From Clostridium sp. (GTDB lineage Bacteria; Bacillota; Clostridia; Lachnospirales; Lachnospiraceae), in the NCBI GenBank assembly GCA_023664775.1, contig JAMPEW010000014.1, positions 1 to 63,234 on the forward strand: a DNA stretch of 63,234 nucleotides, given 5' to 3'. Shown piece by piece: positions 1,836-3,192 of the stretch. The position numbers were made by a program, and so were the translations under genes. Each line of letters opens with the position of its first letter. Positions within the stretch are counted from its first letter, which is position 1. Under the pieces are notes generated by a model that saw only the letters and a list, made by a program, of their open reading frames with translations, made no database searches and was not told where the DNA came from.

Positions 1836-2798
1836 ATGAAAAACAATGAGAAATCGAAACATGGAACAAAACAAGAACAAGGCATAAAGCAAAAGCTACT
1901 CACATGGGAGCAGTGGCAGGAGCTTACAGGCATACAGACAGTGATACGGGAATACAAAGATACGGTATTTCGTATGCTGCACAGGGACAAGAGAAAACTG
2001 CTTGCACTTTACAACGGCGTAAACGGAACAGACTACGATAACCCTGACGATTTGGAGATTGTCACGCTTGAAAATGCCATTTACATGAGCTGTAAAAATG
2101 ACGTTGCCTGCGTCATAGATTTTACCTTTGACATGTACGAGCAGCAGTCAACGGTAAACCCCAATATGCCATTTCGCTATCTGCGGTATGTTTCAAGGGT
2201 ATTTGAAAAGCTTACGATATATGATAATATTTATTCAAGGAAATTAATTAAGCTTCCAACACCTAAGTTTATCGTATTTTACAATGGAAGCGAACCACAG
2301 CCTGAATGTAGAGAATATAGGTTATCAGACGCATATATGACAAAGACGGCAAAGGTAAGTCTTGAGCTTATTGTGACACAGCTTAATATCAATGAGGGTT
2401 ACAACAGCGAGTTACTGGAGAAATGCCCTGACCTGTTCCAGTATATGCAGTATGTTTCAAAAATACGTGAGTATAATAAAGATATGCCCCTTGAGGAAGC
2501 AGTGCCAAAAGCTGTTGCTGAATGTATCAATGAGGGAATATTAAAGGAATTTCTTTTATTAAACAAGGCGGAGGTAGTGAGTATGAGTATATTTGAATAT
2601 GATGCGGAATTACATATGCAGATGGAGCGTGAGGAAGCATTTGAGGATGGACGTGCAGAGGGAATAGAACAGGGAAATAAACAGTCAGCTTTAAGAATGA
2701 TAGAAGCAGGAAAGCTGTCTTTGGAGGAAATCGCACTGTATTCTAATCTTACATTGGAGCAGGTGCTTGAATTAGAAAAGGAGCTGCAACCGGTATGA
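1836..2798 (+). CDS. Rpn-family PD-(D/E)XK nuclease
   Basis: The product is 320 residues and matches the Rpn (recombination-promoting nuclease / PDDEXK transposase-like) family common in Lachnospiraceae. Signs are KDTVFRML (41-48), the acidic pair at 88-89, D95 and the YEQQSTVNPNMP segment (101-112), which together form the nuclease core. LIKLPTPKFIVFYNG follows further on. Residues 250-320 form the variable tail (MSIFEYD..., then EGIEQG, then a short helical end). E. coli Rpn proteins are DNA nucleases linked to phage defence, and their tails can also be made separately as an antitoxin. This tail has its own ATG with GGAGG eight bases upstream. Two further copies of the tail follow directly. 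No transposon ends are visible. The family call is confident; the defence role is inferred. Confidence 0.85.
   Translation: MKNNEKSKHGTKQEQGIKQKLLTWEQWQELTGIQTVIREYKDTVFRMLHRDKRKLLALYNGVNGTDYDNPDDLEIVTLENAIYMSCKNDVACVIDFTFDMYEQQSTVNPNMPFRYLRYVSRVFEKLTIYDNIYSRKLIKLPTPKFIVFYNGSEPQPECREYRLSDAYMTKTAKVSLELIVTQLNINEGYNSELLEKCPDLFQYMQYVSKIREYNKDMPLEEAVPKAVAECINEGILKEFLLLNKAEVVSMSIFEYDAELHMQMEREEAFEDGRAEGIEQGNKQSALRMIEAGKLSLEEIALYSNLTLEQVLELEKELQPV
2583..2798 (+). CDS. Candidate intragenic Rpn tail protein (RpnS-like)
   Basis: An in-frame ATG at 2583 inside the nuclease gene is preceded by GGAGG at 2570-2574, eight bases away. It would give a 71-residue product beginning MSIFEYDAELHMQMEREE. In E. 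coli Rpn systems a small protein made from an internal start inhibits the full-length nuclease. The same reading here is supported because exactly this segment, starting at exactly this ATG, has been duplicated downstream as free genes. Separate translation is inferred and not shown. Confidence 0.45.
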   Translation: MSIFEYDAELHMQMEREEAFEDGRAEGIEQGNKQSALRMIEAGKLSLEEIALYSNLTLEQVLELEKELQPV

Positions 2799-3034
2799 GC
2801 ATATTTGAATATGATGCGGAATTACATATGCAGATGGAGCGTGAGGAAGCTTTTGAGGATGGACTTGCAGAGGGAATAGAACAAGGAATAGAGCAGGGAA
2901 TAGAACAGGGAAATAAACAGTCAGCGTTAAGAATGATAGAAGCAGGAAAGCTGTCTTTGGAGGAAATTGCACTGTATTCTAATCTTACATTGGAGCAGGT
3001 GCTTGAATTAGAAAAAGAGCTGCAGCCGGTATGA
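2795..3034 (+). CDS. Free-standing second copy of the Rpn tail
   Basis: This 79-residue protein is almost identical to residues 250-320 of the upstream nuclease. It differs mainly by eight extra residues (GIEQGIEQ) from expansion of a 12-bp repeat. Its ATG overlaps the nuclease stop as ATGA, which favours termination-reinitiation coupling, and AAAGGAG lies at 2777-2783. It contains no nuclease residues. If the tail is an antitoxin or oligomerisation module, this copy raises its dose over the nuclease. It could instead be a recent duplication without function, but the intact frame and start argue for expression. Confidence 0.6.
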   Translation: MSIFEYDAELHMQMEREEAFEDGLAEGIEQGIEQGIEQGNKQSALRMIEAGKLSLEEIALYSNLTLEQVLELEKELQPV

Positions 3035-3192
3035 GTATATTTGAATATGATGCGGAATTACATATGAAGATGGAGCGTGAGGAGAATGTTGTGGTTATAT
3101 CAGAAATATATAAAGCTGCTGAAGCATTTGCCCTTGATTACGATGAGGCGCTTGTATATGAGGCCTATCAGAAGCAGTATACAACTGTTTAA
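3031..3192 (+). CDS. Third, diverged copy of the Rpn tail
   Basis: Again joined by an ATGA overlap (3031-3034), this 53-residue frame begins MSIFEYDAELHMKMEREE like the two copies before it. It then switches to an unrelated ending (ENVVVISEIYKAAEAF through EAYQKQYTTV). The ending lacks the GIEQ repeat and the LSLEEIALYSNL segment. The ribosome site is weak, so it would depend on coupling. It may be the remnant of an older Rpn gene whose tail had this other ending, or a hybrid small protein. Function is unknown. Confidence 0.5.
   Translation: MSIFEYDAELHMKMEREENVVVISEIYKAAEAFALDYDEALVYEAYQKQYTTV

Follow-up and report, generated by a model that had tools for sequence, protein, structure and literature searches.

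Free-Standing Tail Genes behind an Rpn-Like Nuclease of a Clostridium sp., and a Candidate Leader RNA at the Nuclease Start

Why should the tail of a nuclease recur as separate genes directly behind the nuclease itself? The question is raised by a locus on the forward strand of a 63,234-nucleotide stretch of DNA from a Clostridium sp. of the Lachnospiraceae, hereafter called the window, in which a nuclease gene with an internal start for its tail is followed by two additional tail genes. The original prediction, made from the sequence alone, saw here one nuclease, one intragenic inhibitor and two dedicated extra inhibitors, that is, the principle known from the Rpn proteins of E. coli amplified into a layout without described counterpart. 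The analyzed contig, C5, is a complete contig of a 2.65-Mb genome in 60 contigs (G000); in the following, C-numbers designate contigs of G000, L-numbers extracted loci and G020 the sister genome, and T1, T2 and T3 are names coined in this analysis for tail types.

The nuclease gene (1836-2798), defined by its open reading frame and motifs, encodes an Rpn-like protein of putative PD-(D/E)XK type with 320 residues and a T1 tail. An ATG at 1701 would lengthen the frame upstream; the start is likely at 1836, preceded by AGGAGG (1823-1828), which sequence and hairpin fold point to as the likely ribosome-binding site. The best NCBIfam match of the protein is TIGR01784 (Rpn), with 19.8 bits under a curated cut-off of 52.1, and no Pfam family, PF04754 and PF12784 included, comes near its cut-off; we therefore use the label Rpn-like. 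Among the RpnA residues shown to matter (D63, E82, Q84 and R94; PMC5350276, in the part considered here), the last three correspond by motif and with equal spacing to E102, Q104 and R114, and D89 is the likely counterpart of D63, its distance to the glutamate being 13 residues vs 19 in RpnA. These four residues are invariant among 13 and among 15 aligned proteins, and by such motif comparison, rather than by alignment to RpnA or by structure, the nuclease appears to carry the RpnA active-site pattern. Its AlphaFold model is poor (mean pLDDT 46.8), and a sequence search of the PDB with the nuclease gave no convincing match.

Within this gene an in-frame ATG at 2583, with GGAGG ahead of it (2570-2574), opens an intragenic T1 tail of 71 residues (copy 1, 2583-2798), just as predicted, so that at the level of sequence the tail has the RpnS trait of an internal start with its own Shine-Dalgarno (SD) motif. 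A 96-nt reference from this ATG is found again with 96% identity at 2793 and with 71% at 3029, and 200 nt of the tail are repeated at 95%, which is far beyond chance. Copy 2 (2795-3034) is a free-standing T1 tail of 79 residues that contains the full 71-residue tail at 99% plus two additional GIEQ units, having three of them. Copy 3 (3031-3192, 53 residues) has only the first 18 codons in common with copy 1, with one difference (Q/K), and continues as the 3' end of the second tail type, T2, with an internal deletion; the claim of a tail repeated twice more thus holds for the whole of copy 2 and only for the beginning of copy 3. The frames of the three tails all differ and both junctions are ATGA overlaps, in agreement with the prediction, and the first 54 nt are near-identical among all three. 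AAGGAG (2778-2783) lies 11 nt upstream of copy 2; ahead of copy 3 there is merely AAAGAG. The GIEQ units proceed in 4-residue steps, the first of them at residue 27 vs 8-20 residues past the start in RpnS. RpnA-S forms a three-helix bundle dimer (PDB 7TH0), and PDB chains searched by sequence with the tail yielded no convincing match.

An assembly artefact is unlikely, given that copies 1 and 2 differ by seven substitutions and 24 nt, and that coupled tails are present also at C44, C24 and C10 (broken) of the same genome and at L061 in the sister. We also took as chance a weak Rfam match to a CRISPR repeat (2753-2790, minus strand, E 0.47), and gave no weight to a possible internal promoter at 2203-2230, since the region has 9 promoter-like sites where shuffles have 9.9. 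A phage origin of the free tails was rejected with no match in 50,697 phage records; viral contigs gave four matches, short or weak.

The segment 1167-3250 is an insertion, as judged from the comparison of orthologous sites: G004 lacks the segment at the same site, G003 likewise has no rpn gene there, and the sister genome has the 5' half of an rpn gene at its orthologous site, broken by a contig end. The insertion is flanked by what we take to be a DHH-type phosphoesterase gene and, presumably, Tad-pilus genes. (Beside the same flank, the sister locus L122 on G020:C6 has a pair of genes that by eye look like those of an ABC transporter.) Short tandem units around TTAGAGTATATTTGATTATG are seen by eye at 1365-1480, and a dispersed repeat lies at 1-160, of which 32-157 matches L061 and 99-156 matches L002. 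The number of rpn loci in G000 is uncertain because contigs often end inside rpn copies (C35, C59, C30, C24, C10, C37).

We then surveyed the paralogs in 20 loci of family A (seven with T1, seven with T2 and six with T3 nucleases) up to 700 nt past each stop, counting a T2 tail or its remnant at tblastn E < 1e-12 and leaving out weaker matches (best E 0.018, L063) as well as C55b, whose T2-tailed nuclease is broken; three of the 20 loci (C24, C10, C37) are cut upstream by contig ends. T2 or a T2 remnant lies downstream of five of the seven T1 nucleases (C5, C44, C18, C10, L061), the 700 nt behind the remaining two (C24 and L060) containing none, and behind one of six T3 nucleases (L069) and none of the seven T2 nucleases. 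The T3 case refutes the stricter notion that T2 follows T1 nucleases exclusively. Behind paralog C44 (L002) the T2 tail is of full length and also ATGA-coupled, at L061 a T1 nuclease precedes the same shortened T2 form as in window copy 3, and C18 has a still shorter form of 32 codons, open from its ATGA start. The joint of the shortened form, in the window as in L061, is where full T2 has the near-identical stretches GAGCGTGAGGA and GAGCTTGAGGA, and therefore shortened T2 may have arisen twice. Broken free tails are found at C10 and as a third copy at C24, and C5 and C24 have T1 in duplicate.

In a tree of 18 nuclease domains, poorly resolved in that 8 of its 15 inner branches are unresolved, T1 and T2 nucleases are interleaved. 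The T1 label changes five times on the best tree, at least two of these changes being forced by well-supported branches, and five is no fewer than obtained with shuffled labels (mean 4.5). Since tail type does not track the nuclease tree, tails seem to pass from one nuclease to another. Read most simply, a new tail would be gained at the common tail start, the older one being left downstream; the paralog pattern fits such exchange and displacement better than the deliberate amplification proposed originally. The exact tail-start pattern is present in 16 of 37 genomes of the genus, of which G000 and its sister G020 alone have same-strand tail starts no more than 1 kb apart (a count by exact pattern, which misses diverged starts), and in 8 of 299 genomes of the family, G000 included, with no adjacent starts outside G000 among the matches listed.

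The claim that no such system had been described did not survive comparison with the literature. The portions of Zhong et al. (2023; PMC10327210) considered here describe, for E. coli and C. difficile, the RpnL/RpnS organization to which the window locus is alike, namely a nuclease of PD-(D/E)XK pattern, an internal start with a ribosome-binding site, a variable tail with 4-residue repeats and, behind E. coli rpnE and rpnC, free-standing second rpnS copies. The same authors report a repeat-set specificity of RpnS, suggest that RpnL itself may initiate the recombination producing downstream copies, and regard the release of RpnL activity as a key unresolved issue (PMC10327210). The window locus departs from RpnL/RpnS in that its chain holds two tails with ATGA overlaps, the first being followed by one of another type, and in that the nuclease is preceded by a structured leader, which those portions of the paper do not mention. 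Neither such a leader nor mixed tail chains were found in the main text, as far as considered, of the literature searched, which included PMC11109978, PMC8632094, PMC6429828 and PMC8040213. In E. coli MG1655, ypaA lies 12 nt past rpnE and has the same tail with one more 4-residue repeat; as in the window, the tail is repeated exactly from the internal start and the free copy has extra repeats, but there is a single copy, a 12-nt gap, an annotation as pseudogene and the same tail type. In CDI and Rhs loci, displaced C-terminal modules (orphan toxin tips and immunity genes) stay downstream after tip exchange, whereas the module displaced in the window is inhibitor-like and not the toxic part. 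Relative to Zhong et al., new features are the two tails in one chain, their two types and the pattern of T2 behind T1 among paralogs; the chain of tails is a variation on a system already known, and the leader RNA may be the more important find.

How, then, are the free tails to be understood? That copies 2 and 3 serve as dedicated extra inhibitors, raising the dose of antitoxin against their own nuclease, would agree with the sameness of the tail, the coupled translation start, the E. coli precedent of free-standing rpnS genes (PMC10327210, in part) and the conservation of copy 2. Over the 41 codons of the T1 core, free and fused tails differ by four synonymous and no nonsynonymous changes at C5 and by seven and none at C24 (11 to 0 for the two pairs), the complete T1 copies of C5 by six and one, and dN/dS across all T1 pairs ranges from 0 to 0.77; copy 2 and its paralogous free tail are conserved as proteins. 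Against a dose effect on their own nuclease stands the number of repeats. Fused T1 tails have 71 (C5, C24), 75 (C44, L060) or 91 residues (C18, L061), plus 67 at C10 as estimated with the start cut off, and free ones have 79 (C5) or 75 (C24), all differing in 4-residue steps; in each of the three same-type pairs (C5, 71 vs 79; C24, 71 vs 75; E. coli rpnE/ypaA) the free copy carries more repeats than its own nuclease. Given this mismatch and the finding that one added repeat abolished inhibition in E. coli RpnC (Zhong et al. 2023; PMC10327210, in part), a free tail may leave its own nuclease unaffected. Dedicated extra inhibition, doubtful also because copy 2 has three GIEQ units vs one in the nuclease and because copy 3 is a deleted tail of the other type, is thus in our view unlikely.

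The excess of synonymous changes in the T1 cores argues equally against the free tails being neutral remains, on the way to loss, of tandem duplications and exchanges of tails. Such leftovers would account for the broken copies (C10 and the third at C24), the strong shortening at C18, the occurrence of adjacent exact-pattern starts in just two of the genus genomes and the state of copy 3, which may be decaying and has substitutions at three residues (C, P, E) that are the same in all nine other T2 ends under comparison. For the shared T2 3' part of 26 codons, dN/dS is 0.21-0.84 for copy 3 and 0.04-1.07 for C44, overlapping ranges by which this measure does not separate copy 3 from other T2 ends. 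However, the free T2 of C44 as a whole is under as much constraint as the T2 tails with which it was compared (dN/dS 0.07-0.19 vs five, of which three are fused, one is free and one lies at a contig end), and the three shortened T2 copies (C5, C18, L061) retain a reading frame intact from the ATGA start, which makes general neutrality improbable. It seems very unlikely that the downstream tails form a switching reserve, in which recombination at tail starts would delete the first tail and provide the nuclease with the next: the near-identical 54-nt starts and the interleaving of T1 and T2 nucleases would suit this idea, but no switched orthologous pair was seen, the orthologous site of the sister breaking at the contig end.

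Upstream of the nuclease lies a block common to the family-A loci with enough upstream sequence, L071 excepted. In the window, where the conserved leader region spans 1564-1828, it comprises a predicted structured leader RNA (1564-1680) with the helix P1 (1564-1570/1636-1642), a variable hairpin P3, a CTTC (1631-1634) and a G-box (1666-1680), and a promoter-like TTGCAT-N17-TATCAT (1529-1557), found by position-specific scoring of 64 loci, ends 6 nt before the AAAGCAT of P1. A promoter-like pair with a spacer of 16 or 17 nt a few nt before P1 scores at least 8 of 12 in 60 of these 64 loci, about half of which are near-copies, vs 14% of mononucleotide shuffles with the same spacing choice. P1 (AAAGCAT/ATGCTTT) pairs in all 43 loci with hardly any variation, and the variation of P1 and the pseudoknot is too small to serve as a test. 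For P3, the best hairpin falls within offsets 16-23 at 39 of the 43 loci vs 19% in shuffles, with 28 different stems and a mean stem score of 13.7 vs 11.4; among 31 close leader copies, compensatory change is found in merely 5 of 47 predicted pairs. On these comparisons the leader structure appears to be conserved with compensatory changes. A universal CTTC:GAGG pseudoknot was rejected, since three of the seven pairs cannot form in 4, 12 and 22 of the 43 sequences and the pairing is not preserved at the loci L210, L211, L213 and L218 of other genera. An Rfam search of the leader matched no family.

The predicted folds connect this leader with the nuclease start via an anti-SD, CCTCCTGC (1802-1809), which can pair either with the SD at 1823-1828 or with the G-box. 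Pairing with the nuclease SD is found in nearly all folds made, and a credible SD or anti-SD is absent in 10 of 57 loci scored. The helix between the G-box (GCAGnGAGG) and the anti-SD has 5-10 contiguous pairs beyond the bulge, with a mean of 7.4 in 31 loci hand-chosen from five gene groups and other genera, vs a mean of 5.1 and a maximum of 6.7 in 2000 controls with partners swapped between families. The four GCAG pairs are complete in 28 loci and three of four in the other three, but the GCAG and GAGG:CCTC pairs largely follow from the search patterns, so that the surplus pairs alone constitute the test. PF12784 loci with T1 tails (L177, L179 and kin), left out of the 31, show 4-6 contiguous pairs where an anti-SD was found. 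The G-box lies 97-353 nt from the anti-SD in G000 and its sister and 44-118 nt in G003/G004. (The interval from leader to SD hairpin, about 1740-1800 in the window, contains a variable number of iterated units of about 18 nt in family-A loci.) In translational riboswitches and leader RNAs, the anti-SD pairs exclusively with either the SD or an upstream segment. The window leader would resemble them in its mutually exclusive anti-SD pairing, which could hide or free the nuclease ribosome-binding site, and differs in being a candidate that matches no Rfam family and has no assigned ligand. The pairing potential and its recurrence are observed; the transcription start and the direction of the switch we infer.

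A covariance model built from 31 leader copies, the E-values of which are rough, has matches at E <= 0.01 in 12 of 37 genus genomes, with 18 in G000 and 19 in the sister. Considering the 34 listed matches weaker than 1e-12, 26 have behind them an Rpn-type gene, which in some cases is damaged, reduced to a remnant or visible only as a start at the contig end, one is at a contig edge (L195), and seven are without an Rpn-type gene behind (L170, L172, L186, L188, L192, L193, L199), among which L186, L192 and L199 look like one common non-rpn region. Genes were assigned as Rpn-type by visual inspection of the motifs and tails they share (L178 by its tail match), with family searches on four of the 26: L176 belongs to PF04754, L179 and L184 to PF12784, L179 also matching TIGR01784 at 1e-34, and L171 gave no family. 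A second covariance model produced at least eight matches in five other genera, six of eight lying before Rpn-type frames (L210, L211, L212, L213, L218 and, with damaged start, L216) and one before a remnant-like stretch (L217); the match at L214 looks spurious, and the leader is therefore present in at least four other genera. With 12 candidates scored per genome in the family-wide search, this range is a lower bound; the model-fitted leader alignment, which included some wrong-strand matches, was excluded from the counts. A family search of L205, L210, L211 and L213 placed L210 in PF04754 and found no Pfam family for the others. Two further loci were noted: at L100:3695-5000 (G000:C18) the leader is followed by another nuclease-like core, of the GKDIAYQNKDIISK type, with a T2-like tail at its end, L205 being a relative of this core; and in L217 (G142:C36) a frame that by eye is SIR2-like follows the leader after about 500 nt, with no intact nuclease.

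The anatomy, the paralog pattern and the selection signal are established and support the core of the original prediction, in which an Rpn-like nuclease gene contains a start for its own tail and is coupled to separate tail genes. Their best explanation, to which we give an even chance, is an Rpn-like nuclease locus with exchangeable tails, displaced tails kept as free genes and a nuclease start under leader control. The 3' part of the nuclease gene, from the internal ATG, would act as a cassette: T1 would have entered at the conserved tail start while the older T2 stayed downstream as an ATGA-coupled free-standing gene, and the T1 unit would then have been duplicated at the window locus. By analogy with E. 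coli RpnS we infer that the tails are antitoxins, and in their target specificity copy 2 would most likely neutralize nucleases of its own tail type and repeat number, whether paralogs or earlier alleles, more than the nuclease encoded before it; copy 3 is possibly a decaying remnant. The leader RNA would control the nuclease start and not the tail starts, CCTCCTGC either masking the ribosome-binding site or being held by the G-box of the upstream fold.

More tentatively, and on the doubtful side of our estimates, one riboswitch-like leader RNA unmatched in Rfam and common to several unrelated Rpn subfamilies of Lachnospiraceae may gate nuclease translation while the tail antitoxin is made regardless, the tails being exchangeable cassettes and the displaced ones trans-acting antitoxins against nucleases with the old tail. 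If this were true, a genome with many rpn paralogs would contain a network of toxins and antitoxins, some matching each other and some not. The leader common to several Rpn-type families would be a candidate control point upstream of the protein inhibitor, for which a shared signal can be sought directly. Displaced tails would, moreover, provide naturally occurring antitoxins, matched and mismatched, with which to ask whether repeat number and tail type determine specificity, and would illustrate how an intragenic antitoxin turns into a separate gene.
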